A stretch of DNA of 64,000 nt, taken from the NCBI GenBank assembly GCA_022925895.1, contig JAKSYS010000001.1, positions 662,434 to 726,433 on the forward strand. The letters run 5' to 3'. The notes under the pieces were generated by a model. The model saw only the letters and a list, made by a program, of their open reading frames with translations, did not search any database and was not told where the DNA came from. Shown here one piece after another: positions 2,843 through 64,000 of the stretch; position 1 is the stretch's first letter; every line of letters begins with the position of its first letter. The translations under genes were made by a program, and so were the position numbers. This DNA is from Fragilaria crotonensis. Taxonomy: Eukaryota > Bacillariophyta > Fragilariophyceae > Fragilariales > Fragilariaceae.

Positions 2843-2844
2843 CT

Positions 2845-20932: not shown

Positions 20933-21113
20933 CACTAAATCGTTTTAGCATCAACAGATCTTATTATCTCCCTTATTACCTTTATCTATCCATTTCAGGT
21001 AAGATTTGTCACTCAGATCCAGTTTACACGCAAGAAATCACAATCTGACAGCAATAATCTGAAGTAGTTGTTGCTTGGGTTGTTTGCTTTATTGAGCGTT
21101 AAGTGAGGACAAG

Positions 21114-42471: not shown

Positions 42472-43316
42472 TGGTTCTTGACTTTTATATATTCGCGAAG
42501 TCCAGGAGCGGTGGCTGCATACCGAATTACTGCGTCGAAGTTTGCAGTGACCATGCCGTCGTTTAGAAGAAGATATGCTCCTGCATTGGGTGACATTAAA
42601 ACATGTGGCCGTGACATCCCAAACTCTTCCTGATAACGAGTGGCCAGCTTGTCAGCATCAACATTGAGTTGAGACATGAGTGATAATCGTTGATAAGGAG
42701 TATCGTTGTCTTGATGTCCTTTAACGTATTGGAGTCGGATATCGGGTAGTCGACGTAGGGATGCTTGAATCTCGATGAGAAGATCCCATTCAGGTGTCAA
42801 GACATCCAAGGGTTGCAAATGTGTCGCAACATACTCCAATGGTTCTTGACCTTCTTTCTGTTTCCCGAATAACCGATCTAGTAAGCTTTGACTATCAGTC
42901 CCTATCGTGCCCGTCCACTCACCAAACATTTCAGAATATTCGGCCAAACGAATAAGAAAACGAAGAATTGCCAACATGCCACTGCACTCAGCACGATACG
43001 AATCTACCGTGGCCCCCCTGGAGGGTCCGTTTCCACTTGCCATACGTTCACCCGTCGGAGCACTAATCATCCACCCAAATGCACCCTGAGTGTTATGCTT
43101 TGACGATCCATCGCAGCCCGCGAAAAAGCCATCTTGCAACTCCAGAACTGTCATCCGAGGATCATACGATGTACTCGTATAACGAAGGAGATCTTCTTCC
43201 CATGGGTCTAATTGCGCAATAAATTGTTCGAACGTTCTCGGGATAGGAAGCGATGGCTTTTCGGTTCTTTGAGTCGCTTTACTGAGAAGTTCCCACTCAT
43301 CTGATGCTTCCAGCAT
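42468..43316 (-). CDS. LINE RNase H domain
   Basis: Catalytic acidic residues are visible: Asp69 (GCDGSS), Glu110 (YRAECSG), Asp141 (GTDSQSL) and the last Asp in NVDADKLA. Length and order match RNase HI domains of LINE polyproteins. It overlaps the end of the RT frame by 109 bases. The reading switches frames near 43320, where RT-frame ARLP is followed by MLEASDEWELLS in this frame. Confidence 0.9.
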   Translation of the reverse strand: MLEASDEWELLSKATQRTEKPSLPIPRTFEQFIAQLDPWEEDLLRYTSTSYDPRMTVLELQDGFFAGCDGSSKHNTQGAFGWMISAPTGERMASGNGPSRGATVDSYRAECSGMLAILRFLIRLAEYSEMFGEWTGTIGTDSQSLLDRLFGKQKEGQEPLEYVATHLQPLDVLTPEWDLLIEIQASLRRLPDIRLQYVKGHQDNDTPYQRLSLMSQLNVDADKLATRYQEEFGMSRPHVLMSPNAGAYLLLNDGMVTANFDAVIRYAATAPGLREYIKVKNH

Positions 43317-46309
43317 TCGGACGGCAACCGAGCGGCAGATCTTGGAAGATGATTATAGGATAATAGCTTTCCTGTCTCTTTTAATTTTCCATTTGTTGTA
43401 TTGAGACATTCCACGTATCCATCAACAGTCCTAATGGCCACTTTGTTCCGATACCCATACGAGAAATACTCCATGCGTCGCTCTCGATGGTCTCTCAGAA
43501 ATGGTCCGAGGGGTTGTAATAGTTTTCCCGAAGAGTTACTCCACAACCGATTCGCCTTCTTCCATAACTTCCACGTCGGCGTAGACGGTTTATCCTGGTG
43601 AATTTGAATCCATCGAGTACGACTACTCTGCAAGGATGGGGCCCCTTCCACTTTAGACAAATCAAGATATGTCCCATCTACCGTCACCAGATCTGAAATA
43701 GTAACCACTTGAAGGAATAGACGACAGTAGTTAATGCGTCGGATCTCACCTGCCGTGAACTTTCCAGAATGAACAACCCAATCCATTATAAATGAATCAT
43801 GTTCACGTTCTAAGTGCGGAACGATTCCCGAATCAACATGAATACTCGCACGAATGTTTGCCAAATAATGACGCAGAGAAGCTATCCACTTGGAATCAAG
43901 GTGAGGAAGTGGGGTAGTAACGTCTTCGAGAATAGATATCGAGATACCCGCAGCATATTGACACCATTCCAACAAGATCCTCAACATATCGCCCACTGGA
44001 GTATTAGATCTCCAGTGACGAAGAAACAGTCGAATCTGTCCAATACCTTGTTGATCGTACAAGCGTCGAAAGTTTGATCCGCCGTATTCAAGAGGACCAT
44101 ACAAGATTTCTCTCTTCATGTTACGATTGTAACCACACTTTGCAAAAATAATCGACATAGCCTTGCGTTGAATTTGTGTTAGCTGCCGTTCAGTGAAATG
44201 GGAATTTGCCAATGGATAGCTCATACTTGGTAGATAAGTCGCGAAGTAGAAAGTCCATGATTCCTCACGAGTGAGATTTGTGGACCACAGAAAAGATGTT
44301 AACTCCTTACTTTTGTCCTGTAATTTCTTGAATTGCACTCGTTGGGTACCCGCAGGCTCTTTATAGTGTCCAAGAGTTTTATGCGCCTCATACGTGGACA
44401 AGTATTGGAGTTCTTGGTCTTCTCCTGCCAGTGCATCTGGGACCGTGACCGTACCATAATTTTCCCGATCGTTGTATAACACCGGCGAGCCTGATGCAGT
44501 GAATTTCCAGGTTAGGACATGATAGGAGCATTTAGAGTTCGAGTGATCCCCAGATACTGCCAACAATCTCGACCAAGCGGTTGCATTCGCTTTCATCTTC
44601 TGTAAGATTTGTTTCGGGGTATGTATCGTTTCTGGATCTTCAAATGCGTTCGTTTGTCCATTCGAATCGTCGACAAAACCTATCATCCCCAGTTCTGTTC
44701 GCCTTTCTCGATTTGGACTAAGATAGGCTGCTTTAAATGCGACTTCGTCATAACAATCATATAAGATACTTGACAAGAAACACCAAATGACTGGAGAGTT
44801 GCCACTACCCTGTCCTGTTCCGTATATTGGCTGGTCTGACGTATGTTGATAACCTTCCGTTGCAAGTCCCAATTCAGTACGAATCCGATAATCAGTGTGC
44901 TCTAACGTTCGTGCATTGGACAATGTAACTTCCGGGGACTCGAATCTCCGACTTGCCAACATAGCCAGATTGGGAATGATCCTATCGTAGCATGCGGTCG
45001 CATCATAATTAGTAAGTATCATAGTTTTCCGAGTGATACGTGACATTTCCAGTTGCAACTCCTCAAGAAAAACAGGATCAATAGCAGTCCGTTTCGGTCG
45101 CGAGCCGTACTGTCCACTGTTGAGTTGATCATATGCCTCCGCCTGTAGCAACGCAGATCGCCATTTCAAACCCAGCATCAAGTTGTAATCCGCCTCATAA
45201 ATGTGTATGATTCGAGTTCTGTGAATCTTTATATTCCCAGGCTCTTTGAATAAGACCGAATTCGCCACATTACGCCATCTCATATATGAATACCCACGCT
45301 CCAATGCATAGTTCATCAAAATAAGATGAACTCGGAGAATCTCGCTTTGCATGAATGTGAGTGCTTCGCGTTGTTGTTTGTGCTCCTCACTTTCATCTTC
45401 AAGTATCTCGGAGTAGGAATGCTTTGCAATCATTGCCTTGTAATGGCCTAGATGCATTCTGGACGGTGAGGTCACGGTAGACTCACGCCAAGCTTTCAAC
45501 TTTCCAACATAATCCTCTTTACTTATTGTAGGATATACTCGCATAGACGCGAGCTCGTCGGATATCTGTAAATGCTGTATCACTCGTTGCACGTCACTAT
45601 CCATCCCTGCTGGGTACTTGTAGCGACCGCTGAGAATATGATCTGCTTCTGGACCGTCACCGCAATATCCTAACTGATCACGCAACGGCGCTACCGTAAA
45701 CGGTGTTCCATCTGCCTGTCCAAAATGGCGACGATTCCTCTGCCGCAATTGCTCAATCACCTCCGTAGGAACATCAACTTGTCTCCACTCAGTACACGTT
45801 TTGGGGTCCTGGTCTGGGTGCACCGGAATTTCTATCCTGGATATTCCACTTCTCTCACTTTTCTCCTGAAGACGGCGAAGCTTACCAAACAACCTGTTCA
45901 ATGCCTCTGCTTTATGCAATTGCCGTAATACTTTGGCCTGTGCATGATCTTTACTTGATGTGGAGGCTTCGAGACACGTTATACGACTCATTCTTTCGCT
46001 GTCCCGACGTCCGTATTGTTCTGAAATTATGGATCGTACTTGCTGACGCGCCTCTTTTAATTCTCTGGTGCATTCTTTCTCTGTCACAGGTGGATCATTT
46101 GCAAGGCCAGCCTTGCTCCATGCAGTGCGGATAATAGCTTCATTGTTCAGACGAGTTTTGCCATCGACAGACATTTTGTTAATATCTGCGCTTTTGTCTC
46201 GCTTTGTGGAGAGCGACGGACCATGGCGCTGTACCAACTCGTTGAATGGATTTTTCTGCCGCAAGACTTGCTTCAACAACATCTTTATCCAACCTCTCGG
46301 CAAAAGCAT
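43208..46309 (-). CDS. LINE reverse transcriptase
   Basis: The palm motifs are NYDATACYDRI (catalytic Asp436), GTGQGSGNSPVIW and GFVDDSNG (Asp547-Asp548, FVDD in place of YADD). A thumb and a long C-terminal region follow. The nominal first ~45 residues overlap the endonuclease frame and are probably not used. The homologous reading passes from the endonuclease (HKARQKRRY) to KMSVDGKTRLNN near 46185. The catalytic region is uninterrupted for 1,000 codons, consistent with a recently active element. Confidence 0.92.
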   Translation of the reverse strand: MLLPRGWIKMLLKQVLRQKNPFNELVQRHGPSLSTKRDKSADINKMSVDGKTRLNNEAIIRTAWSKAGLANDPPVTEKECTRELKEARQQVRSIISEQYGRRDSERMSRITCLEASTSSKDHAQAKVLRQLHKAEALNRLFGKLRRLQEKSERSGISRIEIPVHPDQDPKTCTEWRQVDVPTEVIEQLRQRNRRHFGQADGTPFTVAPLRDQLGYCGDGPEADHILSGRYKYPAGMDSDVQRVIQHLQISDELASMRVYPTISKEDYVGKLKAWRESTVTSPSRMHLGHYKAMIAKHSYSEILEDESEEHKQQREALTFMQSEILRVHLILMNYALERGYSYMRWRNVANSVLFKEPGNIKIHRTRIIHIYEADYNLMLGLKWRSALLQAEAYDQLNSGQYGSRPKRTAIDPVFLEELQLEMSRITRKTMILTNYDATACYDRIIPNLAMLASRRFESPEVTLSNARTLEHTDYRIRTELGLATEGYQHTSDQPIYGTGQGSGNSPVIWCFLSSILYDCYDEVAFKAAYLSPNRERRTELGMIGFVDDSNGQTNAFEDPETIHTPKQILQKMKANATAWSRLLAVSGDHSNSKCSYHVLTWKFTASGSPVLYNDRENYGTVTVPDALAGEDQELQYLSTYEAHKTLGHYKEPAGTQRVQFKKLQDKSKELTSFLWSTNLTREESWTFYFATYLPSMSYPLANSHFTERQLTQIQRKAMSIIFAKCGYNRNMKREILYGPLEYGGSNFRRLYDQQGIGQIRLFLRHWRSNTPVGDMLRILLEWCQYAAGISISILEDVTTPLPHLDSKWIASLRHYLANIRASIHVDSGIVPHLEREHDSFIMDWVVHSGKFTAGEIRRINYCRLFLQVVTISDLVTVDGTYLDLSKVEGAPSLQSSRTRWIQIHQDKPSTPTWKLWKKANRLWSNSSGKLLQPLGPFLRDHRERRMEYFSYGYRNKVAIRTVDGYVECLNTTNGKLKETGKLLSYNHLPRSAARLPSECWKHQMSGNFSVKRLKEPKSHRFLSRERSNNLLRN

Positions 46310-47507
46310 GTCGATCTCCTAACCATGTCAATTGATCAATTCGTCGGAAAACATTATGATCTTCCAAAATTTTATACTTCCGTCGAATGTACGCTGTTAC
46401 TTGTTGGCGATGGTTGGAGCGGAGAATTCGCGGTTCCAATTTCGAGAGAGGCTGGATCATGGTTCCGAATAGACTCGTGACAGAGAAATCCACAAAGTAT
46501 GGTCTATGATCCGTGGTATATCTTGCGTTAAACGCTTCATATCCTGATTTGCGGACGGATTCCACAACCTTGGGTGTGGCAAGCGCATAATCCAAACATC
46601 GTGAACCTCGTGCATATGTTGCCGGCAACGTCGTTCGATGATGATGTCGCATAATATCAATCATACCCAAAGCGTTCATGACGCTTATCATGCCATCCGC
46701 TTCGCACCCGATCTCTTCATTAAAATCCCCCACCAAAAGAATCTCATGACCTGCCTGGCGACATTTTAGAAGGTATTTTTGAAGATCGCGCCGAAAAGCC
46801 TGTCGTGGATGTATAACGTCATCTTGCTCTTGGATGAGAAGGCTGTGTTGTTGTGAAGCCGCAGTGGTAAGACCTGGAGGGGAGTCTGTGACAACTTGGT
46901 ATGCTGACACGATAGTAATTACACTACCAGCACTGCCTAGGAAAGACTGGCTTGTCCAACGTCCCCATTTATCCCGAAATCGGTCTCGAACACGAGCACA
47001 CGTATCTCCAACTGTCAATACAAACGTTCCTCCTGGTTTATACATTCTCTGAAATTCCATTGGCGTGGTACTAAAATCAAGGCGAGAACGTTGCCAGTAC
47101 TGTTGTGTCGTATGATACAGTGTACTACGAACATATGCCTTTGTGGTATCCAAGTTGTGTTCTTGTCCGCATGACACATCGGCTTGCACTTCTTTGAGCA
47201 CTCGACAAAACATATCATACTGACCTCCCATTCGATCAAGTGTAAATCCATTCACATTTGCACAATAAACCCGAAAAATATCCTCTCCTTTGTCCTCCAA
47301 AGCGTCTCCCCATTGTACATTTGATTTCATATTAGAGTGTGTTAGGAAAATTTCCCGATTGACATTGGATTCGCTATGGCCACGTTCCGCAGCGAAGAGT
47401 CTTTTCCATGCCGCTTGAGCTGTTGCAAGACAAGCAGACTCCTGTGGGGCATTCTGGTTGGGTGCCAGAACACCCCTGTTCACGTTTACCTCGATGGGCG
47501 CACTCAT
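46179..47507 (-). CDS. LINE AP-like endonuclease (EEP family)
   Basis: This nicks target DNA to prime reverse transcription. Motifs in order: YCANVNGF (Asn), CGQEHN (catalytic Glu), GDFNEE, CLDYALAT and TTDHRPYFVDF (His). The ATG at 47507 lies only 5 bases after the ORF1 stop codon (TAG at 47515-47513), so it may be translated by termination-reinitiation. The stop at 46179 comes after the domain, where the RT frame takes over. Confidence 0.92.
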   Translation of the reverse strand: MSAPIEVNVNRGVLAPNQNAPQESACLATAQAAWKRLFAAERGHSESNVNREIFLTHSNMKSNVQWGDALEDKGEDIFRVYCANVNGFTLDRMGGQYDMFCRVLKEVQADVSCGQEHNLDTTKAYVRSTLYHTTQQYWQRSRLDFSTTPMEFQRMYKPGGTFVLTVGDTCARVRDRFRDKWGRWTSQSFLGSAGSVITIVSAYQVVTDSPPGLTTAASQQHSLLIQEQDDVIHPRQAFRRDLQKYLLKCRQAGHEILLVGDFNEEIGCEADGMISVMNALGMIDIMRHHHRTTLPATYARGSRCLDYALATPKVVESVRKSGYEAFNARYTTDHRPYFVDFSVTSLFGTMIQPLSKLEPRILRSNHRQQVTAYIRRKYKILEDHNVFRRIDQLTWLGDRHAFAERLDKDVVEASLAAEKSIQRVGTAPWSVALHKARQKRRY

Positions 47508-47512
47508 TTTGA

Positions 47513-50068
47513 CTACATAGGATTGGTCAGCCCACGAGATTCCGATCGGGCCAACCGGGTTTGATCCTCTTGATTAGGATATATCGCCTCTAGTCTCATC
47601 TCTGTGTGAGGTTCGGCGCTCGGGATCGACGTTTGTCGCGTATCTTGGTGTTGGGATGCAATATCTTGTAGCTCATCGCTACTAATGACGTCATCAGCTA
47701 GAACTCCTGGCGTTGATTCGTAATAAGAATGATGAATGGATGATTGCTCTCTATCGTCGGCAATTTGGCTCGAGTCAAACGACAACTCTTTGCTGCAATC
47801 GTGCAACGGGTGACTGGGATGGTCCGGATACATCGGGCTCGGGGGGTCTTGCACGTAGGGATTTTCTGGCGTCCAGACTGTAGAACGATGAGTTGACCGA
47901 GATCTGAACTGCTGTGTCGCTTGTTCTTCTGACATGTCTGATTCGGATTCTGCAGTTTCGGGAGGTAAAGAAGCATGCGGAGGATACATTACTGGAGACG
48001 CCTGTTGTTTTGCAGGTGATTCACGAATAAATTGCCGTTTACGGCCGCTCGTCAATCGCCTACCACGAACGTCGTGCACTTCCAGGTCATCTTCCGTGGT
48101 ATCGGCATGTTCACTGGCTCTTTGTACTGGATTAATTCCAACATTAGGAAAAGATGTCGATTGTTGCATCATTTGCATCACCATCTCGGTTAACATTTGC
48201 ATGTGCCGATTTTGAGCTGCCATAAACGTCCGAAAATCTGAGTCTGAATTTTGAGCAATGAATGATGTTGGCTGTTGACTCGGTCGCTGCTGGAGTATCG
48301 CTTCTACTTGCCGTGTGATTCGCGTATCCATCTCTTGCTGCTGAGTTGCAACTTGACGTTCAAATTCCTGTCTTTGGTTCGCCAATTGTCGTTCCATCTC
48401 CATACGCTGTTCTGCCACCTGACTTTCAAAAAGACGTTGTTGATCAGCCGCTTTACGTTCCAACTCTCGCTGTTTATTTTCTGCCTGACGTTCAAGCTCT
48501 AAGGCTTGTTGTTGCAGTTTTAAATCCATTTCGCGGCGTTGATGCTCGGCTTGACGTTCAAGTTCACGTTGATAAGACTCTTTCGACACTTCGAATTGAT
48601 GCAACTTCATTTTGAGTTCCTCTACTTCTGCTCGACTTGACGCCAAGTCAGACATGTACTCTTCATCGTATGTGGTTTGCGATGTGGAGGGTGCTTCAGA
48701 AACCGACGCTTGACGAGAGGTTCCCTTGACTCGTTGTGCCCATGTCTTCGAACGGGAGCTCGATCGATCACTTGGTTCTTTGGCTGTCAAGTCAATAATA
48801 GACGGTGCATTATCCGATGCTGAATCCTCCGACATTGTTGCTGCGTACGACATTGCAGTGTTGATACTCGATGACAAATAAGTACCTTCGCCACTAGAAT
48901 ATCCATCAGAAAACAACGGAGCAACTTCGGGGTCACGAAATCGCTCATTGATAAGTTTTGCATCAGCAGATACATGGGTTTCGAACCAATCTTGCAGTTG
49001 AGATATAACACTGTTTCGAGCCTGATGAAAGGCTGCCTTATTCACCAACACTTTGTGACGTCCATCGTGTACAACATTTGAACCTGCAATAACATCTCTA
49101 ATTCCAGGAACCGCTTTGATATGATCGGACATGTAATACATAGCATCTATACTCACGTTGTTCATGATGAAAACGTGATTGTCGTGCATGTGCTGTGTTT
49201 GTTGTCTGATAAACCGAACATAGGCCTCTGGATGCTTAGATCTCAATTGAAATGGAACGAAGTCATGTGTATCGCTATATGCGCGTTTCAACGTCTTCAG
49301 CAATTCCATCGAGTCCAGTTTTGAGGTTTCGATTGCATATGCTTTCGTCTTGATGGTCTTCCCGCGATGTTTGATCTGTGGAGTGGTGAAAGCCAATTGA
49401 AACTTTGGAATTTTTGTCCGGGCCGGCAATTTACTCTGTATGTCTTGTCGCAATTTTTCGGTTGCGGTTGCGACGTCATAAAACTGTGGGTCTAAGCCCA
49501 TGACAAATCCAAGTTGAGTGGTATCCCAGATATCCTCGGTCCATCGGTGCTCAGTAAGGAAGCAGTTGTTGTCTCGGAGAAGACGATACACTTTAGGTAT
49601 GTTTTTGATTTCGGAAAGGGTTACAGACGTCCGAATTCTGTGAATAATCAACGCGGAACCTTTCGGAGATGCGATATACTTCTGGTGTTCACCTTGGACA
49701 GTATCTCCGACTCTAGATCTTGAATTGGAGTGATGAATTTGAAACTGTTTGGAGTGCTGCCCTATGGTCCACCTCATAGTGTCTACAATAGGCATGGTTT
49801 GCCCATTGTTATTCATGATCTGAATATCTGCACCACAATATTCTTGGACTGCTTGAATCCAATGAAGATGGATCTTGGACGGCGACACTGGTTCTCCATT
49901 GTTGTTCAGAAGAAATCGGAATTTCACTGTTTTCTCGACAAGGTGTTGGACATTTGTCCTTCCACCACGTCCACCGGGTGGCGTAACATCTGAGGCATCG
50001 TCTGAGATTCCTCTCACAACCGATGGTACACTCCCATCTCTGGGAGAGCCGATGGGGAGGTCGGTCAT
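47513..50068 (-). CDS. LINE ORF1 (gag-like, coiled-coil)
   Basis: Intact 851-residue frame from an ATG. No family match beyond position. The first ~380 residues are mixed alpha/beta and moderately basic. Acidic/Ser regions follow, then a strong charged coiled coil (about 500-610) made of repeats around RQAE.QRRE and ERQ.A.QQ. A Met-rich helix (HMQMLTEMVMQMMQQ) comes next, then a Ser/Pro/Gln-rich tail. No CCHC knuckle. A coiled-coil ORF1 is usual for LINEs and probably multimerises on the RNA. Confidence 0.8.
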   Translation of the reverse strand: MTDLPIGSPRDGSVPSVVRGISDDASDVTPPGGRGGRTNVQHLVEKTVKFRFLLNNNGEPVSPSKIHLHWIQAVQEYCGADIQIMNNNGQTMPIVDTMRWTIGQHSKQFQIHHSNSRSRVGDTVQGEHQKYIASPKGSALIIHRIRTSVTLSEIKNIPKVYRLLRDNNCFLTEHRWTEDIWDTTQLGFVMGLDPQFYDVATATEKLRQDIQSKLPARTKIPKFQLAFTTPQIKHRGKTIKTKAYAIETSKLDSMELLKTLKRAYSDTHDFVPFQLRSKHPEAYVRFIRQQTQHMHDNHVFIMNNVSIDAMYYMSDHIKAVPGIRDVIAGSNVVHDGRHKVLVNKAAFHQARNSVISQLQDWFETHVSADAKLINERFRDPEVAPLFSDGYSSGEGTYLSSSINTAMSYAATMSEDSASDNAPSIIDLTAKEPSDRSSSRSKTWAQRVKGTSRQASVSEAPSTSQTTYDEEYMSDLASSRAEVEELKMKLHQFEVSKESYQRELERQAEHQRREMDLKLQQQALELERQAENKQRELERKAADQQRLFESQVAEQRMEMERQLANQRQEFERQVATQQQEMDTRITRQVEAILQQRPSQQPTSFIAQNSDSDFRTFMAAQNRHMQMLTEMVMQMMQQSTSFPNVGINPVQRASEHADTTEDDLEVHDVRGRRLTSGRKRQFIRESPAKQQASPVMYPPHASLPPETAESESDMSEEQATQQFRSRSTHRSTVWTPENPYVQDPPSPMYPDHPSHPLHDCSKELSFDSSQIADDREQSSIHHSYYESTPGVLADDVISSDELQDIASQHQDTRQTSIPSAEPHTEMRLEAIYPNQEDQTRLARSESRGLTNPM

Positions 50069-50153
50069 GGTCAGTTTCGTTCAGTACAAAACCTACCTAA
50101 GATTCACGTAGAAATTAGTAAGGGTCTTACAATTTTTCCTAAGTGAAAATTCT

Positions 50154-50171: not shown

Positions 50172-52524
50172 GATTCACCAATAGAAGAATTACTCTTACC
50201 TGCAATCAGCTTGGTTGCTTTTTGAAAGCCATCTTGAAATGGAGGTTGTAAGTTGTAAGCAGTGGTCTGTGTTCTCTCGTTTTGCCTCCAACCTTGCGAC
50301 GCTGGCCTTGTCTTTTCCTTGGTAAAGTTGTCTTGGCGGTTGTTTTTGAAGTGGAATGCTATCCTGCTGATTGCTGTCTTCCAGATGATCATTGTGCTTG
50401 TCGTGCTTGTCCACTGCAGCAGCATCAGACCATCATAGGAGCTGCAATGAGGATGATGACGACAAAGGCTTTGTCAAGGGGGGGGATGTCAATGTTGTTG
50501 CTGTCCCATCCTCTTCACAACCAGAGGTCTAGTACAAGAACATCAATGACCATTCCCTCCTTGCTCATCATGGTGCTGGGTTTCTACGCAGTGTTTACTT
50601 AGTAAGAATGCAGTTGCTGTGTTGTTAGGCTGGTGCCTTGTTGGAGATTGCATGCCCTGATTGTTTCACCAAGGTGAACCAAGCTTGTTCACTTTAATCT
50701 GCAAAAAATAGCATTACAGATTCTTGTTTGTGTAGCACAAGATTCCTTAGCAAAACTTCGACATGAAATGCTACCAAAATTCTAGCTAATCAAGCAATTT
50801 CAGACATCAGCCACTCTTGCATTGAAACTTTCCGTCTTTATGGCATTGTCATGATATGACTTAAGTGCTGGTTGTCCTGCTTTGTATGATAGCTGGGTCA
50901 TCATCAAAATGTTTTGCTGTGCCTTTTGCTTTCTTGAACACCGGGTCCAGTGGATGGACCATACAACACTGCAAAGTCTACTTGGTGCGAACTTGGCTGG
51001 TATGCGGCTTCGTTGCTCTTCCTTTCCCTTATACATACAATGTGAGGGAAGCGACACAACTGCAATTATTTATGGATAACCGATTGCATGAGAGCAATTA
51101 TCGCAAAAGTAAAGAAGCAGACTTCTCGTCTATCATTTCACAAACAGTGCCAGCCAACCGAGCAATGCAGACGACCTGGGAATCATTTGAGCTGAGACAA
51201 CAGCACTTCGAAGGCTGATGAAACCGGTCTAGGTGAAAGGTCATCAAGGATCAAACAATAGACGTGGTGGCAATAGCAACACTATCAACAAGTAGTACAA
51301 TCGAGCAGACAATATGGCCATGACAATATCATGGCATCATAACCAAGGCTCAAGACGGTAATCTATAGAACACACAGAACAGAACACACTGAACAAGCAA
51401 GACTCAATCAAGGGGGTACATGTTTTGGGCCAAGAAGAGGCCTCTATGAGATATAACATAAACGGATATTACCACCTTTGGAAGTTCATACAATCACAAC
51501 AGCAGTGGACTGATCCAGTGCAACATATGATCAATCTCGAGTTACTCGGGGATTTCTGTCCTCGTCTTTCGATTCGGGCGCAGGTCGCCCATACATAGAT
51601 CAATCTCGATCAATGGTGTAGTAATGGTAACAAACGATCCCGGGTGGCAACAATCAAAGCTGATACAATAGTAGGTGTATGCCCTTGCTGCAGGAAGCAT
51701 GGTGAGTCACCGCAACATGGCCTTTGTTGTACCGACAACTCCACACTTTAGTGAGGCATTAAAGGAACTAGCAAAACGACTGACGCCGTCAGAATTCCAT
51801 CTTGCGTTTCCGCTACTGAAACAAGAGATCATGGCAAGGTTTGCGGGAAAAGCCTATGAGCCTGACCTAACTGGCTTTCCGCAAATTCCATGACTCTACT
51901 ATTACGACAGCGCTCGCGGATCAAGAGCAGATTGGGTGGCATTAAAGGGTGTGAATGACCTTTCAACTCAAGAGGACAAAGGTATTTATACTCTAAAAAC
52001 ATCCTGACTCATGTCCAACAGGCAATACAGATCATTTGGAAAGCTTGCAATAGTAATGCACTGCACAACTCCTCCGGGGAGGGTCTTCAAGGCATCAAGA
52101 TCTGGAATTTGCAGAGATTAGGAATACCTCAGAGGGTTCCGGGTTGTACACCTACCATATGGTGGTAACTGTAAAATATTTTTTTGAGTCCGGTACAGAT
52201 TTGTACCATGGTTTTTTTGTGTATCAATTTTTGGTACACCTGAACAAAATAGTACTCCCCTACTAATTGCGTACCACAAAATGGTACAAAGGACTAATGT
52301 TTTTCGATTATAGTACAGCCTTGTCACACTGACTGTACAGTGTGTCACATCTTTGATCATGTGATATCTATGTTACGCTCTCTTCTTTGTATTCCATCTG
52401 TCACATTCACCGTACAACACACCATCTGATTGTACCGATGTACTCCCAGTAGTGCGTCTCTGTGCAATGTGTCCCTATAATGACAAAATTCTATATCGTG
52501 AGCATTTCATTGTTCTTGTTACAA
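50172..52524. other. gene-poor stretch, possible retroelement debris
   Basis: Short frames only. A 72-codon frame (51675-51893, with HFSEALKELAKRLTPSEFHLAF) and a 48-codon segment before 51218 look coding-like but match nothing I know. TGGTAACAAACGATCCCGGG near 51627 looks like a retroelement leader or primer-site region but has no partner. From 52180 to 52350, TGTACC/GGTACA motifs are frequent. Confidence 0.4.
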
Positions 52525-54220
52525 TTACAATTCACAAAACGCCTCTACTGCTTCAGGCATAACACGCCGTCTCCCTCCTTCTTCCTCGGGGTCTCTCAGA
52601 ATGTCATTGTCCACGCGATCTCCAAATTTTTGTCTCCTCAATGCAAGGAGCACTTCTTCTTCAGCTTTCTTTGCATTAGCACTCTTTCTGTCCCTATCTA
52701 CAAGCATCGACAATTCATTGAATCTCGCAACTCCCTCCGCACTCCACCCTCCATACAGGCAGTGATCCATTACCGATGATGTGTATTTGCCCGTGATCTT
52801 CGTATCAGCCTTCTCGCCACGGCGTTCTGTGTGATACCGTGTTATCCATTTTTCAATGTAATTCTCGTAAAGGAGGAGAGCAAAAGCCTCATCAGACACT
52901 GTTACCACAAGTTCTTGACTTCCCTTGTCCACAACAGCTTCAGATACCCTGTAATAGTACTTTTTCCTCCCCCAAACTTTCTTTCCCGACACACATGCCA
53001 GAAACTCCCCAATAAACCACTGAAATGCTTTCTTGTCAAGTTCATGTTCTCCTTGCCTCAATTTTTCAAGTGTCTGCATTGAGTATGGTGGGTTAAGATC
53101 ATCTGCGTTGGCGTAATCAAGTTGACGAAGTAGTTCCTTGACAATCCTCCCACCTGCCTGCTCACAGGTACTTCTCTTGCCATTGATGCTGCCAACAACA
53201 CATGTCTTGTATATCCTCACAAATTCGTCCTCGTCATCTGGTTCTTCAGTTTCAAGAACAATCTTCATTGCTCTATTGAACATTGCCTCACTCGTAATGA
53301 ACTTCATCTTCCTGAATATCATTCCCTTTACAACGACTTGAATTCTATCAACGATGTGCTTCTTTGACTATCATGGGCAGTTCTGTATGACATAGCCTTT
53401 TTCGGATATTATCCTCACCAGTTTGTCCTCTTGATCGACGAGACAGAGGACCGTCATCGTCAGTCAAGGAAAATCCTGAATCATAACTGGATTCACTTCC
53501 AGACAAAGAAGCCTCATCCCTCCGACTCCATCGTCCTCGAGATCTGGCGCTACCACCTTCCCGCGGATGACAACGGTGGGATTCATGGGCACGTTGACGT
53601 TGCCACAATCTGTCAGCAGGACGACCTCTAAATGGAGTGTCATCCTGCACCTGATCATTACCTCTAAATGGAGAGCGATGATCAGGTTGACAATTATGTC
53701 GATGCCAATCATGAGGATTGTTTCGATATTGTCGAGATCCTGGGTTGCCACCTCTAGATGGAGAGCGGTGCCGATCATGAAGACCACCTCTAAATGGAGA
53801 GTGGTGATCAGTTGCGTTACCACTAGCTCCAGTGGGAGATTGGCTTCTTGAGTCATCAGTCCGTCCTTGATTTTGCTGGTTCCGCTGTCTCTCTTGTATT
53901 CCTTGTTGATGTTGGTGAGAGCCTTCATTACCACCTCTACTAGATGGAGAGTGGTGCCGAGCATGATGACCACCTCTAAATGGAGAGTGGTGATCAGCTG
54001 CATTTCCACTACCTCTAGTGGGAGATTGGCTTCTCGAATGATCTACCTGGTCTTGATTTGGTGCATTTGGCTCTCGTTCATTTCTTCCTTGTGCTGTGCC
54101 TACCTGACCTCCTTGTTTCTCTTGCCATTCTTGCCTCTTGTCCCTCCTATCCTCATTCGGGTCCACGTTCTCTTCATTTCCTTCATTGTCTTCACGTGAT
54201 CTCCTCTTCCTCCCTGCCAT
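52525..54220 (-). CDS. Arg/Ser/Gly-rich protein of an unrecognised, transposon-linked family (one frameshift)
   Basis: From ATG 54220 (MAGRKRRSRED) the first half is charged and low-complexity, with repeated (H/R)SPFRGG and SQSPT motifs, resembling RS/RGG RNA- or DNA-binding tails. The reading passes through a one-base change in GTCAAAGAAG near 53362 to KKHIVDRIQVVVKG and a folded C-terminal half. That half has CVVGS, KKVWGRKKYYYRVSE, SDEAFALLLYENYIEKW and LYGGWSAEGVARFNELSMLV. The GGWS.EG..RFNEL block recalls a recurrent stramenopile protein family, though I cannot name a function. A degraded relative lies at 13.2 kb, so the gene multiplies or travels with repeats. Confidence 0.6.
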
Positions 54221-54229
54221 GATTCTCAC

Positions 54230-55562
54230 TCAGGTGTGTGATTCCGTGTTGCACAAAGTGATTTTGTAATGCTCTCCTACATGTGCTCGTGCTCCTTATA
54301 TTTTGTGTTGCTGCGCCATGTTTTCAAACACATCCACAACCAAATTTCAATATATTGTATATACATTACTAGTGCTTAACAATTTGTACATACATCACAA
54401 AGGCTGGTTGTACTTGTAATTCATATTTTATTCGTACTGATTACATTTCTATTCGTATCATACTACAAAGTGGTATGTAAATGCATTTCCGTTATGTATC
54501 CAAAAAAATGATAGTGTCTGCATTTGAATTTTTTTAGTCGTTCAAGGAATGCTGGTTCGAGTGCCTAAGAAGTATAGTACATTAGTCACAGTGAAGAACA
54601 GTACTAGTACACTTGTACCGTGTTCTTGTACTAGCAGGTACGGCGGTACTAGCATTGTTCATGTTCAGTGTAGTATGTACCTGTAGAGCACACTGGATTG
54701 TGCATGCTGTATTGCTGTATTGCTTTGTTCAATACGATGATAGTGTACGTATTACGTACCTGTACGTAGTTAAATTGTATGCATACACACAACGCTGTGC
54801 GAGCCGTTGGTCACACTGTACGCTGTAGTATGGCGAATGGCGATACTTCCTGTCACGTCGACGTTGACGCTGTTGTGCATTTGTACTGCACGTCACACCA
54901 TGCTTGCGCAGTATAGTACGTCAATGTACCACATATCAGTGCTGGTCTAAGTACGTTTGCATTACATGTAATTTTTGCGTGCGCTGTGACGTATGCGTGT
55001 ATTTTGACCGGGTCACGATGTGGTGATAGACTCTGTATCCGCATTTTACACCCTATCGGTCTCGTGTTACTACGGTGACGTTTTTCCGTTCCTCCATGTG
55101 TTTTGGTGGCAGTCATGCGAAAAACATTCGTGTAACTGCACGGTGAATAGTGCATATGATGCAACGATCGTGTCCACTCGTGTTTTTGCATGTATTAAGC
55201 CTATATACATCTGAATATATAACATTACATACAGTGTTTTCTTACATGCATTTTCGCCTGTATTTAAGCTAAAATCATCACAATATATATACGTTGCATG
55301 CGTACAATTAAATATAGTCTTTTCTATGTACACTTTACACACAAAAAGAAAATTAGCATACGTATTTTCTTAGTCTTACAAATTGTATGATCGAAAAGTG
55401 TAGTCCCAGGTAGTGTTTTGTGGGACTTTATTTCTTGGTGGACTTCTATGTCCTATCATTCCTATAGTGCGCGCATGCAGTCCCATTTCACGTCATGATG
55501 CTCGTGCGATAAGAGCAGTGGGAAGTGCACAAAACAGTCTCGAATGCGTGTTGATTGTTTCT
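54230..55562. other. intergenic, GTAC-rich low complexity
   Basis: No gene. Clusters of TGTAC/GTACG occur at 54590-54780. A small hairpin, AGTCCCA...TGGGACT, at 55403-55428 lies near where the left end of the next element is expected. Confidence 0.45.
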
Positions 55563-56110
55563 TGCATCAATCACTTCGATCAATCGACTTCCATTAGAAG
55601 CCTTTGATCGAACTGTTTGATACCCGATCTGACTCGGGTTGTAACAAATACCATTGTAAGGAAGTAGATGCTCCGCGACAAGGACCTGGTGCCACATCAT
55701 TCTCTTCTAGCATTTGACTTCCATTAGAAGCATTTGTCTCGAAGTGGAAGATAGGCAACCTGCATCGATCAGTTTGAGCATTTGTCTTCAATTTGAAGCA
55801 TTTGTTTTCAAGTGTTGTACCTGATCGGACTCAATTTGGGACAAGTAGCTAACCGGCACTCCTTTGGGACAAGGAAGATCTGGTCTGCGAGGAGGTATTC
55901 CGCATCGATCTCTTTTAACAATTGTCTTCCATTAGAAGCATTTGTTTGGAAGTGTTGGAAACGGATTCTGACTCGAATTGAAACGAGAACTTGGTAGCAC
56001 TTGGTAGCACTTCGTGATTGACACAATTCTCAAGGACTACGAGTTCCTGGTTTTGCAGCGATCACTTTGTACAACAGTCTTCCATTAGAAGCATTTGTTT
56101 TGAAGTAGCT
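55563..56110. repeat. diverged repeat array, likely subterminal repeats of the Plavaka-like element
   Basis: CTTCCATTAGAAGCATTTG or close variants occur at 55588, 55718, 55786 (CTTCAATTTGAAG), 55926 and 56079. They sit in a larger unit that also has GCATCGATC before and GATCTGACTCGGTTG-like sequence after, with period about 140-155. The core CTTC-N5-GAAG is itself an inverted repeat. Arrays of short repeated protein-binding sites just inside the ends are characteristic of CACTA-type elements. Confidence 0.7.
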
Positions 56111-56474
56111 GTCATTTGGAACAGAGGGAACCAACTGCGATTGATAAGGATTGGCGACCACCACCAGTGAAACTGTAGTAGCTGTGGTAGGGTGTTCTCA
56201 TTGTTCACGCACTGTCACCTTTGACAAAGCAACTCTCACCATTAGTGGAGTTGCTGTGAACTTCGAGACATTCTTTGGTTTCGAAGCCTACAGTAGGGTT
56301 GACATTACTTTGAACTGGCTCACCATTTAGTGGTCATTTCTTGGTTGGTGTTTTTCTTTGCTTTGGCACAGTTCGAAGTTGTTGCACATCGTGACTACCA
56401 TCGGTTAGTTGGTGCAGCACTGTCCGTTCCTGCTTTGTGTGCCTGTGTTGTGCACTACTGCCATACGCCCTCCC

Positions 56475-59400
56475 ATGTCCCACCAAACTAAAGCCCATTC
56501 TATATGGGGTGGCGGTGCTGCAACAACAACAAAAGGGCTGCAGTATCGAGTTGGTGCCAATGTGGTTGGTGAAGTCGTGCGGTTCCGAACGTTTCCGAGC
56601 GAAACGTCCCGTCGTCTCATGGCAACTATGGCTTTGGCCATGGATATGCCCCGTGCTCTGATGAAGATGGAGGGTGGGGCTGTTGGGCATGTTGACATCC
56701 CACACGATTCTCCTGATGATGTCTCTGATGCTGACTGGTCCGATGCCGAATCGGAGGGCGGAGTGGAGGATGTGGAGGAGGTGGACGATTGGCTGGACAA
56801 CACCAAGGAGGGGGGCAAGAAGAAGCAAAAGCCTCGTACCATTTTCCATCCGTCGAAGATGCAGATGGCACGCACGATTTCGAAGTGTCTACCGAAGCAG
56901 GATGTAGAACAATTTGAACTCCTTTTCAAAACATTTCAAGGTGTTACGGAGTGTCCGTCTGGATGTGACAATTGTGGAACTGATGTCAATGCATTCATAA
57001 TCAAGACTAGAGTTGGCTGTATCGATACTCTGGGCACTTCAGCGTCTATACGGTGTGGGAATGTGGATTGTGAGATGTGTGATCAAATCAACAGTGACCA
57101 CCGGGATGGCAAGGTTTTCTTGAAACGTGACTATCTTGAGATAGTGATGATGGACGCTGTGTTGTCCCGTGTCTTGAATGCCCCAAGGCGTGTCAGCCAC
57201 TGGTAAGGAGACTGTTGACACACCGGTCAAGTTCAGAGCTGAAAGAGCAGAATATTTGGATGCAGAATTTGACTGGAGGTTTCGTGCCTTTCTTGCTGTG
57301 GTTCCTGATGGTGCAACGTATTATTGCCACCGTGATCGGCGGAACCGGGTATTGGGAAAGCAAATGAGGTTATTCCCATGGACACATCGTGGCTACGGGT
57401 AGTGAAGAATGTTGATCGTGACAGCAGTCGGTTTGCTGATGGCGGATATGTTTCTCGACTCTGGGATGGGCAACCATTCTGGAAATTCAAGATCTCGCGA
57501 GGTGAAGCGAATTTCCAGTTGAATCCCATTCCAGAAGAACCTGTCATGAATTTGTCCTGGAATGGAACCCTTCCGACGCTGCGTGTCATGTCAGCATATC
57601 AGTGTCCTGATGAATTGGGTCCATGTCTACCCCCCGATTTCATCAATGGAGAACAACATGATGGTGCCCAAAAAAAGGCACACCTGAGGCGTGTTTACAG
57701 GATGGCTCTCATGAGTTCGAAATCTGCGAGACGCGGGTGCCGTCACTATGCTCATGGCTATCTTCACCGCAAAATTGACCCAAATGAAACCTTGATCATA
57801 GATCCCGAGGATGGTGATATTGACATCCGGGTGGCCATCCAGATAAGACGTCCACCTTCGAAGGCAGACGCTAAAGATCCCACTAAGCATTGCGTTGCTC
57901 TATCTCGTGAGTCTGTGGTGCTGGTCCGTTACTTGCCACACTTGGGAAGCGGTGCCGAGAAGCTATTATCCAATATCAGGGATCACGCAAGTACTGTGCA
58001 AGGCCAAAACAAGCACTCTGCAAGGAACGGGCTTGGTGATCATGGTTCCATGTTTCCTTTGGGTTCACGCATCATGAAGGACAACATCACAAGAAAGCAG
58101 TATGTGACTTCCACGAGGTCAAAGCGGGAGCAGCGGTTATTGAAAGGGGCTGTCGTTGCATGCTCCAGGCTAGCAGCTGTAACCATCCCAGGAATTCTTC
58201 GGATTATGCAGGATGCTGAAGAAGATGGTGACATTCCTCCCCCTCACGGGGGAATGAACGGCGACTGCATGTTTTGTCGAATCTCCCATACAATGGATGT
58301 CAGTGTTGACCTTTCGAATTCAACTCACTATGATGTCAACGATGCGTCCCAAGGTTTTCCATTTGGACTGAGGATGAACCTGGAAGTACTCGCAATTGGT
58401 TCTTTATTCTCCTAACGTTTACGGCAAGAGGCCTGACGGTATGGGTGGGGAGAAGGGTGCGATGTTCCATGGAGTTGCTATTAGGCTGACCCATGGAGTT
58501 CTTATCAGTTGGGATGGTCGGGTGATTCGTCATGGCACATCGGTGATGGAGCGGACTAAACATGTGTATGGATCATTTTTTGCGGCAAAAGGTTCTGTTG
58601 TTGCATATGGCGCGCGTATGGCTTTCAGGAAGGAAGCCATCAGGCGAAGGCGATCGAAGCGGCGACAACGACAACAACGACACGATGGGCCTGGTGGATT
58701 GTTGATTTCTCCTGCGATCAGTGGATGTCGTGACAAGGACGATGGTGTGGATTTGTTATCGATCCCCATTGCCAGAAAGAGTAAGGCTTTCGGGGATTCT
58801 TCTCTGGTTGAAGCCAATGTGCTGGGAAACGATGATACGGATGAGGCTTTGGGCGATGATGTCATCTGTGGCAACGGCATTCTGGGGGATGACAATTCAT
58901 CATGGAGTAACCACAGCTATGCTGATGATGTCAACGACTCCACAAGTTGTGACATCGGCATGATACTTGACTTGACACCTGGAGGTGGACATGGATTGAT
59001 GGGAGGGCTCATGATCGATGTTCCGGATGATGACAGTTCTATTGAGAGTGACGCTCGCGATGACGGCTTTCACCAAGGTCGTCGTCCCCCAAATGATCGG
59101 TATGATAACTTGCAGAACAGAGGCCAGGAATATCCCTCTCCGAATGATGGGAAGAGACGATGGAATGACTTTTGCACTGACAGGGTTTCCAGTTATCCTC
59201 ACAACGGCGGCTTCCAACATGGACATGAACGTCGTCGTCCTCCGAATAATGATCGGTATGATAACTTGCAGAACAGAGACCAGGAATATCCCTCTCCGAA
59301 TGATGGGAAGAGACGATGGAATGACTTTTGCACTGACAGGGTTTCCGTTATCCTCACAACGGCGGCTTCCAACATGGACATGAACGTCGTCGTCCTCCGA

Positions 59401-60018
59401 ATAATGACCGGTATGATAACTTGCAGAACAGACAAGGCCAGGAATATCCCTCTCCGAATGATGGGAAGAGACGATGGAATGACTTTTGCACTGACAGGGT
59501 TTCCGTTATCCTCACAACGGCGGCTTCCAACATGGACATGAACGTCGTCGTCCTCCGAATAATGACCGGTATGATAACTTGCAGAACAGACAAGGCCAGG
59601 AATATCCCTCTCCGAATGATGGGAAGAGACAATGGAATGACTTTTGCACTGACAGGGTTTCCCGTTATCCTCACAACGGCGGCTTCAACATGGACATGAA
59701 CGTCGTCGTCCTTCGAATAATGATCGGTATGATAACTTGCAGAACAGAGACCAGGAATATCCCTCTCCGAATGATGGGAAGAGAGGATGGAATGACTTTT
59801 GCACTGATGGGGTTTCCCATTATCCTCACACTGACGGCTTCCAACGAGGACATGAACTTCGTCGTCCTCCGAATGATGGTTACTTCCGTGGAGGACAAGA
59901 ACATCATTCTACAAACCATGATTCTCTAAATGATAGAAAGAGGGCCTGGCGTGGTGATTGGCAAATCAGTCATGGTGATCGTGTTAACACCAGGGGGGGA
60001 TGGCATCATCGCTCATGA
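56475..60018 (+). CDS. 2-oxoglutarate/Fe(II) dioxygenase-like protein (possible TET/JBP type) with C-terminal repeats, several frameshifts
   Basis: From ATG 56475 a start region leads to an acidic linker and a Cys-rich segment (CPSGCDNCG, CGNVDCEMC). Frame changes near 57195 and 57365 lead to a long conserved region. Its end holds HYDVNDASQGF (His317 and Asp319 of the frame from 57378). After two more shifts (about 58355 and 58405) follow LTHGVLISWDGRVIRHGTS (His46 of the frame from 58396) and HVYGSFFAAKG. The HxD...G...H pattern with strand-rich sequence fits an iron-binding double-stranded beta-helix; assignment to TET/JBP DNA-base oxidases is a hypothesis. A basic patch (RRRRSKRRQRQQR), an acidic stretch and five 52-residue repeats complete the protein. 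Multiple shifts in the repeats mean the exact sequence is uncertain. Confidence 0.55.
59099..59878 (+). repeat. coding tandem repeat, 156-bp unit, five copies
   Basis: GGTATGATAACTTGCAGAAC starts at 59099, 59255, 59410, 59568 and 59725, spacings 156, 155, 158 and 157. The in-frame unit is 156 bases (52 residues: RYDNLQNR..EYPSPNDGKRR, WNDFCTDRVS, PHNGGFQ.GHERRRPPN). The near-identical copies differ by one- or two-base indels that alternate the frame, so copy number and indels are prone to assembly error. Confidence 0.93.
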
Positions 60019-60258
60019 TTGTGGGCAACGGATGGGTGATAACATGCATGTACGCCAACATATGTACGCGCGTTGAGTCACTGGACGGGTGCAATTGAGT
60101 GAAGATGATTCTGACAATGTGGATTCTGATGATGGTTGGTAGTAGAGATGATTCGTATAACTAATTTATTTTGTACGAGACAAATTGATGCATAGGAATT
60201 CTACCAAGCTGATTACATTGACACATCAAGAGAGTCCATTGGGTCTGGCACTGATCGG

Positions 60259-63200
60259 TCAGTCTTCCTCTTCGGAGCTCTCAGCTACTCGATCGAGAAT
60301 CGTTTTCTCATACTGCCAGTCGATGAAAGATGTCCAATTGTCTGCCCATTGATCACGGCGGCGGGTCATGAAGATGTATGGACGAAAAGGATGAGTGATG
60401 CTCCATGCATTGTGCATCCCATAATTACGTGATAAGTCGGTGATGACAACAGTTGGTCCCACTATGGAATCCACTTGGATGATATACAGTTTTGGCAAGT
60501 GCCATGACTCAGGAAGCAGCGATAGTCTATATGACTTGAAAATGGGAGGATCTTTCTCCTCCATGACTTCAGCTGCATCTGCTGCTGGTGTGACTCTGGC
60601 TGCAACTTGGTTGCGTAGTCGCTTCTTACGACGGCGCTTCCTTGGAGAAACATGCATGGAAAGCTCCTTTGCAGCCAACTTGGCTGCCTTCTCCGCCACG
60701 GTGTCAATGGCATCATAAGATTGCACGATGATGTACAAACCTGGCTCTGGGATGAACGCAGATTGATGGGGGAACTTGATTTGGCAGTTTGGTTTCAGGT
60801 TATGAAGGTTGACAATTGAGAGAATTCTAGCTGGGGTGGCTATGTCATCCCAGTCCACAAGGCATGATCGTACCAGGGCTTGTCATCATACTTGGGGTGA
60901 GCACGGTACAGTACACCTTTCGGGCAGGTATACTCAGTTTGACATGCAAGGGTAGGAGGTTCCACAGACGGGAGCAAGTAGTCGACCATGGTTTGCAGAA
61001 CATGCTTATCGATTATAAGCTGAGGCGGAACTTCGTTTGCTTTCTTCCTGTCATTGGATCGCCATGAACATTGGGCAACGCCAAGGGGAGTTGTGGAAAT
61101 GGAATAGGACTTTCCAATCCATGGTCGGCGAACGCTGTTTCCTTCACCAATGAAGTCATTCTGTACGGTAACTTCGGTGGCAACCTGTCGATTGGCATGT
61201 GAGATGGCCAAGTTCTCGGCATAGCGGTGTGCCGCCTGAATCTCATAAGTTTCATTACGCTTCTGTGTGTTCTTGACGGTCTTCTTGGCGATTGGGATGT
61301 GTGCAGATTCAGCATACGCACTATTGAATATCTCAGGAACCCCAAAGTTTTCAATGTCCTCTGCCATGTGAAGAACCAAGTGCATCTTCACAGTATTGTT
61401 TTTCAGGCCATCATGTCGAGGTGCCACAGTCTTTAGCAATCGCAATAGATATGATGTTGCATAAATTGACCTCTTCACGCAACGACGGTCAATCTGTGGT
61501 TGCTTCATCCATGCCCACCACTCCAACAAGGAGGAAAGGAGAAGCTTCAATCGGCAATGAAGTTGTCATGACCGGGATGCTTGTCTACCTGACCACCTTG
61601 GACAGCTGATGCCCTTGCCCTATCAAAACCTCTCCATAGCGGGTGGTTTCAAAAGCGAGGAGCATGATCAGGAGAATGCCAGCATATTCGTGGCCTGGGA
61701 TGTTGGAAGCCGAGGAAAAGTCATTTGTTGTTGTACGTGGAATGTTGCGGTCACTCTGTCTTACCAGCTGTGATGCTATGTCTTGACAGAGTCGACTGTA
61801 CTTCCTGCCAGACACACTAGTCTGGCCAATTTGTTTGAAAAAGGATTTGACAACATACTTAAACCAACCAAGTAACACAAGATGTAAGATCTCGCCAGGA
61901 CAGGCACCGAAGATACCACGATCAGAATGCGCTCCAAATCGGACCTTGTCAAACGCATTTACAAGCATGTGCTGAGATTTTGATTGCAGAACATCAAAAC
62001 TCTTGGCGTGGACAAGTCTGTTGATCGCCAGGGGCTTCCTCTTTGCAAACTGCCGACCCTTTGACCACCCGCTTTTCATTGTGGGACACTCGCAAGCTCG
62101 GCATAACTGTGCGACACCACCGGTGCGAGACTTGTAATGACCACAAAGTGCATCGTGACCCTCTGTGTCCCCTATTATGAAAGGAATGTAGGGGTGGAGA
62201 ACTGTGGGGTACGACTTCCCCCTGTACTGTATGTTCCACTTGATGCCCCGCTCTTGCAGTGAAAGAAAGCCTGATTGTTGGAGGATGAAGTTGATTTGCA
62301 TGTGATACTCGTTTACTTTCCATGTTGCATTGGTACATCTCTTGTACATGGGAAGAGGAGCACTTGCGGCGAGTTCCACAGCAATGCCAGGTTCTGCGGG
62401 CTGAAGATCCTTTTTTAAGGGATGGATATACCCCAAAACACGCATTGCCTCAGGTTTCTTCCGAACATCATGTTGCATGAGCCCATACTGCATTGTAATG
62501 GGTTCCAATGGCAAACGGCCACTTCCACCAACATCACATATTGTCTTGTCGATTGCCAAAGGACATGCAATCAACATATCATGTGGGTTCTTGCAAAGGG
62601 AGCTGTGGGTTTTGAGATACGATCGACCAGTGTTTAAATCTCCGATTACACTACCATTGGGAACTGCATATGGATCGTGGTCGGGATTCCAATCACCGTC
62701 AAATATGTAGTTTGTGTCAGCATTAAGATGACGACAGGACAAAAGGTCAGCAAAAACAGCTGATGCGCTGAAATAAGCAACTCTAACTGACACGTCAGAA
62801 TAAGGAAGGTAAAGTGTCTCCCATACTGGGATCAGCCTATCTCTGTTGAGACGCTTTGTTACCCTTGACAATACTGTCTTTCGAGACGTGATTGCAGTGT
62901 CACGGAAAACGTGACCGCTGCGAACAGAACGATTGGTCCATTGCATAATAGCCTCGTATGCCTTCATTGGGGCACCAAGGTTGCTAAGTGTTTGAAGAAG
63001 ATCAATCTGAACCTTCTCCTCACGGGAAAATAGAGAAAGGTTAAGACCATTGTCGTTGACGGAATCGATGTGCTCCTGATAAGCTACCAGCATGGAAGAG
63101 TCGGAGCATCTTTGTCCTCAGATTCTTCCGCGGAGGATGCTGTTTCAAACTCGCGAATCGAGGAATCAGGAGCATCTTCTTGGTGGACTTCGCCTAAGAC

Positions 63201-63650
63201 AGTGGGTGTCGCTTCGTCATCCAGGACAGGGAAGTCATCACATGGGTTCTCTGATGCGGTACCAAAGTCATTAACCTCACCACGTTGTTCAGGCGTGATG
63301 GTGAGGCTATGACTGTCATTCCTCGAAACTGGGAAAATGGAGCGGCGAGAAGAACTCCGATGATGCAACTGCCTGGGGTGATGATCAGAGTCAACACCAT
63401 CGGAGTCGATATCTTTGGGGTCTGCTGTTGTATCCTCTAATCTCTTTCTACGCTTCCTGCGTCTGGCGTGGTTAGTGGCTGGACGTTTTCGTGAGCCTTC
63501 GATATCAACAGAACACTGGGGGTAATGGGAAAAATGACGTGACATCTGTCCGGCCTTGACCTCTCGACCACATGAGTAGCAGCGCTCCTTCTCTGGGGAT
63601 GAAAAGAGATGACTGCGCTTGCGGATACTTTGAGTGTGGTGTTCATTCAT
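60259..63650 (-). pseudogene. Plavaka-like transposase, several frameshifts
   Basis: Four minus-strand frames form one protein. From Met 63650: a basic start, a zinc-finger-like CYSCGREVKAGQMSRHFSHYP and a Lys/Arg patch. At about 63090 it passes to YQEHIDSVND and the core with MLIACPLAIDKTICDVGG, PFIIGDTEGHDALCG, a CRACECP knuckle and GIFGACPGEILHLVLLGWFK. Shifts near 61590 and 61555 lead to LLEWWAWMK, KMHLVLHMAEDIENFGVPE and AESAHIPIAKKTVKNTQKR. A shift near 60850 leads to DWDDIATPARIL and WSITHPFRPYIFMTRRR. The D..GHD and C-x2-C arrangement and the K.H..H...NFG block match the Plavaka/Tnp2 branch of CACTA transposases as I know them. Protein-level conservation is good despite at least four indels. 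Confidence 0.78.
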
Positions 63651-64000
63651 TGTTGGGGATGCTTTTGCATACAATAAACATAGGAAGGGAACATACACAG
63701 CAATACAATTGAAAGATGTACCGTGGTAGCCATCAGATTGAAAAAGGGATACAAATACGTTCCGAATGTGGAGGCGGGAAGCATCATCTTGGGGTACCTC
63801 AGTGATGTGTTCAGAGATAGTAGGACCATACATGTGCATCACTTCAAAAATTTGAACGACATCCAATTTATAAATAGAAATGTAAAAGTATGTCCATATC
63901 AGGAAAAATTGATACAGAAAAGTGTATAGATAACATACGAAACTGTTCTAAAGTATACCGTCTGTGTGTGGGTGTAAAACCCGCAAGGTTCTGAGGTATG
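63651..64000. other. 5' flank of the Plavaka-like transposase to the window edge
   Basis: An open frame extends upstream to 63866 but lacks recognisable content. No subterminal repeat like the one on the left was found before the window ends. Confidence 0.4.

Follow-up and report, generated by a model that had tools for sequence, protein, structure and literature searches.

TET/JBP genes reportedly travel in KDZ transposons of Basidiomycota (Kyakuja, Dileera and Zisupton), as described by Iyer in 2014 according to later papers. Such TET+ KDZ elements resemble the locus studied here in bearing a TET/JBP gene on a transposon, but differ from it in their unrelated transposase group, their 8-bp duplications (Zisupton) and their fungal hosts. 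Fungal TET/JBP genes fall into three types, found in seven, two and five lineages of transposons, Plavaka among them, and escape from silencing has been proposed for the transposons that bear them (PMC12730594). Every fungal TET+ Plavaka belongs to PlavakaB, which has CATCA..TGATG ends and duplicates 2 or 3 bp of target sequence, and its TET is of the PE type, whose defining motif is HxE (PMC12730594).

Chlamydomonas CMD1 provides a second point of comparison, having a TET fold in an alga, an HxD...H triad and an Asp at the +5 position from the first His. It differs from the protein described here in that it uses ascorbate, yields 5-glyceryl-methylcytosine and has solved chains of about 860 aa, and it is not described as transposon-borne in the accessible part of its source (PMC7854593). 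Lastly, TET2, NgTET1 and CcTET are the best fold matches to our protein and share its putative iron triad, but are only about 6-12% identical to it and are cellular enzymes with demonstrated oxidation of 5-methylcytosine (5mC).

Here we analyze a 64,000-nucleotide stretch of DNA from the diatom Fragilaria crotonensis (the window), which lies terminally on contig C218 in a genome of 62 Mb. A preliminary description of this DNA had compared it to the KDZ transposons of fungi; transposon-borne TETs are indeed known there, but the proper counterpart is Plavaka rather than KDZ (PMC12730594). The likeness to fungal TET+ PlavakaB with PE-type genes (Kojima 2025, PMC12730594) lies in the presence of a Plavaka transposase and a TET/JBP-fold gene, here a predicted one, in one element, in CATCA..TGATG ends for most of the diatom elements, and in 2-bp duplications. 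TET-bearing transposons, Plavaka included, are therefore already known from fungi; what differs here is the diatom host, the CCTCAGA..TCTGAGG ends of the window subfamily, an oxygenase with HxD (25/25 copies) where the PE type has HxE, a regular third gene in fixed order, and the copy number, this single genome having at least 134 oxygenase loci. We found no TET-bearing transposon in a diatom, nor any outside fungi, in the literature searched, a mention of diatoms in Iyer 2014 being possible.

Boundaries and gene content of the element

Comparison between copies fixed the exact ends of an 11,870-bp transposon at positions 52127-63996 of the window; it is bounded by terminal inverted repeats and flanked by a target duplication of 2 bp. 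The element thus begins 3.4 kb to the left of the 55563-64000 interval first proposed as its extent, and a third gene occupies its left end. On this side, the window is joined by sister copies C321 and C770 exactly at 52127 (CCTCAGAGGGTTCCGGGTT...), the first position of the left terminal inverted repeat (52127..52154, + strand, CCTCAGAGGGTTCCGGGTTGTACACCTA...). On the other side, the window, C321, C770 and C129 are common up to ...CCGCAAGGTTCTGAGG at 63996, where the right terminal inverted repeat ends (63969..63996, - strand, ...GGGTGTAAAACCCGCAAGGTTCTGAGG), and then diverge. The two repeats match each other imperfectly and are abutted by TA on either flank (52125..52126 and 63997..63998). 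An 18-nt inverted pair at 52215/63904, picked out by a repeat finder, was rejected as the terminal repeat, the true ends lying outside it.

Other subfamilies have ends reading CATCAGAAGG...CCTTCTGATG or close to that. CATCA..TGATG was seen at both ends in C340, C134, C124, C183, C285 and C609; in C1 and C193 the right end is ..CGATG and the left end was not found. Matching 2-bp target duplications flank seven of the eight elements with both ends known (TA in the window, CC in C321, TG in C340, TC in C134, TA in C124, TT in C183 and TA in C609), the eighth, C285, having non-matching flanks (TA vs. TG). C770 was left out of this count, as it has the same flanks as C321 and looks like its other allele.

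The element contains three genes, in the order g3 (- strand), oxygenase (+ strand) and transposase (- strand) from left to right. All three are frameshifted in the window and this copy is therefore dead. The oxygenase frame is broken three times (at about 57.2 kb, 58.36 kb and 58.41 kb); the pieces of the transposase lie in four overlapping frames and those of g3 in two. Sister copies that are 99% identical to the window have an open oxygenase core. In other subfamilies, the longest open frames reach 1494 aa for the oxygenase and 1188 aa for the transposase.

The third gene, g3 (52525..54229, - strand), forms a single 568-aa frame in C321 and has at least 159 matches in the genome. The N-terminal half of its product is of low complexity, with many RS/SPFRGG motifs, and about 280 aa on the C-terminal side make up a conserved domain. 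A comparison of g3 with Pfam gave nothing above cut-off. A fold model made from three sequences (pLDDT 47) was too poor for use. Our guess would be that g3 encodes a DNA-binding protein or an assembly helper.

The transposase is of the Plavaka superfamily

The transposase gene (60259..63947, - strand), which encodes an N-terminal zinc-finger-like motif, was assigned to the Plavaka lineage from the family alignment and the Pfam profile PF18759 (Plavaka). This profile was matched by 10 of the 12 full-length paralogues, with a best E-value of 6.8e-10; the C414 transposase, 60% identical to that of the window, scored above the cut-off, while the broken window copy itself gave no PF18759 match. An invariant CxxC (LCRxC) in the family alignment, lying between the second acidic residue and the last Glu, corresponds to the C(2)C motif known from the Plavaka clade (PMC12730594). 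A conserved His, a candidate for the H(3-4)H motif after C(2)C, is also present. In its match to PF18759, its C(2)C motif, the PlavakaB-type ends of most elements and the 2-bp duplications, the family agrees with the Plavaka superfamily. The same genome has a second Plavaka lineage, which scores better on the Plavaka profile.

The oxygenase gene was under selection and has an invariant HxD...H triad

The transposase converges on an HxD-bearing gene, and both were found where the preliminary description had placed them. The latter gene, including an N-terminal region and a repeat-rich C-terminal tail, spans 56409..60018 (+ strand) and, although frameshifted in the window, is open for 841 and 948 aa in the C321 and C770 sisters, respectively. 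The repeat array noted earlier beside this gene is located correctly (59078..59878, + strand; 5.1 copies of a 158-bp unit), but in the window subfamily it encodes the C-terminal tail of the oxygenase. Near-identical sisters read through it in one frame, for which reason we discarded the idea of an independent repeat or a regulatory element.

The order of motifs typical of iron/2-oxoglutarate oxygenases, an HxD followed by a distal RH, had also been anticipated, and HxD...H proved invariant in 25/25 aligned copies. It comprises the His-Tyr-Asp motif at 58326..58334 (H362 and D364 of the model described below) and the distal His of a WDGRxxRH motif at 58531..58533 (H431), which the model places on a confidently predicted strand; these residues, all encoded on the + strand, form the putative Fe site. 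Equally invariant (25/25) is an Asp five residues past the first His (58341..58343, + strand; D367), equivalent to TET2 Asn1387, NgTET1 Asp234 and CMD1 Asp350, which hold the N4 atom of 5mC (PMC11040006, PMC7854593). This +5 position is polar in TET/JBP enzymes (Asn or Asp), with Gly in CcTET, according to the same sources (PMC11040006, PMC7854593). A Thr two residues past the distal His is also invariant in the family, and a Lys after the last strand of the model nearly so. Copy pairs with a dS of 0.25-0.7 gave dN/dS ratios of 0.10-0.21 for the oxygenase, which was therefore under purifying selection during the active life of the elements.

The predicted fold of the oxygenase is closest to TET enzymes

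HMMER comparisons of the oxygenase to Pfam, NCBIfam and the PDB gave chance matches only, and the Pfam Tet_JBP profile had no match anywhere in the genome at E-values up to 10. Because no sequence profile recognizes the oxygenase, its family assignment rests on the predicted fold and the positions of its motifs, and sequence surveys relying on Tet_JBP would have missed it. This miss is not disqualifying, since fungal PE-type TETs are also barely detectable by sequence (Kojima, PMC12730594). Two alignments used in searches of viral and prokaryote contigs found no relatives there, a result that is uninformative on eukaryotes.

We modeled the oxygenase core (57240..58626, + strand; coordinates mapped from sister L011, 99% identical) with AlphaFold2, using 28 aligned copies, all from the window's own genome. 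The first sequence of the alignment came from C321 (99% identical to the window) and the other copies were 34-63% identical to it. The five models had pLDDT values from 61 to 80, and the one used had a mean pLDDT of 80 and a pTM of 0.87, the HxD loop being its weakest part (pLDDT about 55). The fold, which the preliminary description had named beforehand as one of two refuting tests of its proposal, is predicted to be a double-stranded beta-helix, with TET2, CMD1 and CcTET as best PDB matches. Foldseek ranked TET2 first (2.5e-9), then CMD1 (8e-8), CcTET (1.5e-7), FTO and NgTET1. VIA-align likewise gave TET2 the highest Z score (18.0, over 285 residues at 4.5 A), then CcTET (16.0), NgTET1 (15.5) and CMD1 (15.0), with ABH3 (11.1), FTO (10.9), PHD2 (10.8) and AlkB (about 11) next after this group, a ranking that speaks only on the families present in the fold list. 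In a library of viral models, the named top matches include JBP1/TET oxygenase proteins. The predicted fold and the invariant residues suggest that the oxygenase is a TET/JBP-type enzyme traveling with a Plavaka transposon in a diatom.

Oxygenase and transposase descended together

Merged matches of several searches of this one genome gave at least 134 oxygenase loci, at least 89 transposase loci of the same lineage and at least 112 g3 loci, all counts being lower bounds. Among the listed loci, 51 of the 54 oxygenase-transposase neighbors within 8 kb are convergent, 60 of the 61 g3-oxygenase neighbors are divergent, and the full three-gene order is found at 45 loci. An oxygenase lies within 8 kb of 53 of the 89 listed transposases, compared to about 4% expected by chance. 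In the second Plavaka lineage of the same genome, an oxygenase was found within 8 kb at 0 of 36 loci.

The other refuting test named beforehand was that the two genes lie in different elements or never co-occur, and like the first it did not refute the proposal in this genome: they occur together inside matching terminal repeats in eight elements, and are convergent at 51 loci. Across 12 elements, moreover, oxygenase and transposase regions diverge in step (r = 0.97, somewhat inflated by near-identical copies among the 12; 0 of 5000 permutations reach this value). Since their divergences track each other, oxygenase and transposase descended together. Their linkage holds across oxygenase subfamilies of about 35% identity.

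Discussion

The explanation we consider probable is that the window contains a dead copy of a large diatom family of Plavaka cut-and-paste transposons, which bring along a third protein and an Fe(II)-dependent DNA oxygenase of the TET/JBP type, and act on 5mC in their own DNA, easing silencing or readying the ends. The oxygenase would oxidize 5mC, or modify it otherwise, in the transposon's own DNA, and methylation silencing by the cytosine methyltransferases of the host would thereby be lifted or prevented; alternatively, the element ends would be left in a state usable by the transposase. In either case, the element would stay expressed and mobile. Both the oxidation of 5mC and its use against silencing are inferred here. 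The host genome encodes several cytosine C5-methyltransferases, 5mC has been reported in diatoms (PMC9998398), and that of P. tricornutum is largely limited to transposons (PMC12344493). Since fungi are known to have such pairings, the family would seem to be a case beyond fungi of a transposon equipped with a tool against silencing by DNA methylation.

The main rival, which we consider rather unlikely, is that the TET/JBP-fold oxygenase adds a different mark, for instance ascorbate-derived glyceryl, like CMD1, or a hydroxyl on thymine, like JBP, labeling transposon DNA for its own transposase or against recognition by the host. CMD1 is indeed among the closest folds, the Asp at +5 is shared with CMD1 and NgTET1, and the invariant Thr two residues past the distal His has the spacing of CMD1 His397/Thr399 (PMC7854593); other activities are also left open for the fungal transposon TETs (PMC12730594). 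However, TET2 outscores CMD1 in fold, and the near-invariant Lys after the last strand could, in the model, still bind 2-oxoglutarate.

It is more improbable still that the oxygenase is a non-DNA 2-oxoglutarate enzyme, i.e. an RNA, protein or small-molecule hydroxylase, carried as chance cargo. The double-stranded beta-helix is common to many 2-oxoglutarate enzymes, and FTO, AlkB and PHD2 match the model at Z scores of about 11, but the TET-family structures score 3-7 Z units over all others, the TET-type +5 residue is invariant, and the linkage to the transposase is strict across subfamilies that are about 35% identical. That the two genes adjoin fortuitously, or because separate elements inserted into one another, could be suspected in a repeat-rich genome where 80 of the 134 listed oxygenase loci have no detected same-lineage transposase within 8 kb (in part broken copies, from lists that are lower bounds), but is effectively refuted by the common ends and duplications, the fixed order and orientation at 45 loci and the correlated divergence.

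A bolder version of the anti-silencing explanation can be offered only tentatively, and we lean against it: an ancient, obligate system in stramenopiles, in which a TET/JBP gene was captured by a diatom Plavaka lineage separately from fungi (HxD motif, no recognizable sequence kinship), selected through only about 35% identical subfamilies, and fixed with a third protein as a standard component, its base chemistry possibly differing from that of known TETs. The diatom family, with element ends of the same type as in fungi but another type of enzyme, suggests that transposons have taken up demethylation enzymes repeatedly or very long ago, and that this strategy is not peculiar to fungi. Diatoms would thereby gain a candidate 5mC eraser, and the family supplies many natural enzyme variants for tests of base chemistry.

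The CpG observed/expected ratio is 0.76 in the element vs. 0.88-1.05 in the middle of the window. This mild CpG poverty suggests that the element may have been methylated at times despite carrying an oxygenase gene, and neither proves nor excludes protection from methylation. The host genome also encodes silicon transporters (PF03842, best E-value 4e-193), which mark it as that of a diatom.

The third gene of the element

The genome contains at least 159 matches to g3 (window 52525-54229, minus strand), the third gene of the Plavaka-type transposon. SR and SPFRGG repeats are present in the N-terminal half of the g3 product, for which Pfam gave no match to a known family over the cut-off; a poor-quality fold model suggests that the product may be helical. 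In the second Plavaka lineage, three transposases (G000:C620:10541-11260, C474:32772-33491 and C674:9396-9743) lie within 8 kb of a g3 homologue, and the TET/JBP-like oxygenase was not detected within 8 kb of these three. Of the two genes, g3 may be the older or the more widely shared.

Surroundings of the element

Four bases (window 63997-64000) separate the right end of the transposon from the end of the contig, where the assembly probably broke at the repeat. The 855-aa first frame of a LINE-like element (41602-50080, minus strand) ends about 2 kb away from the transposon; the LINE-like element also has a 1036-aa long frame, an endonuclease domain (4e-8) and a zf-RVT trace. The window further holds a Harbinger/PIF-type transposase (32153-33595, minus strand; Plant_tran 2e-25, DDE_Tnp_4) and a Copia-type retrotransposon (266-7335, plus strand) with RVT_2 (3e-21), a zinc knuckle, an SH3-like domain and, upstream, a gag-like frame.

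In the host region, a phytanoyl-CoA dioxygenase-like gene (28605-29804, minus strand; PhyH 4e-10) represents an unrelated 2OG enzyme. A subtilase gene (21096-22823, plus strand) lies between two FAD-binding monooxygenase-like genes (9509-10795 and 26603-27853, both minus strand), which are separated by 16 kb.
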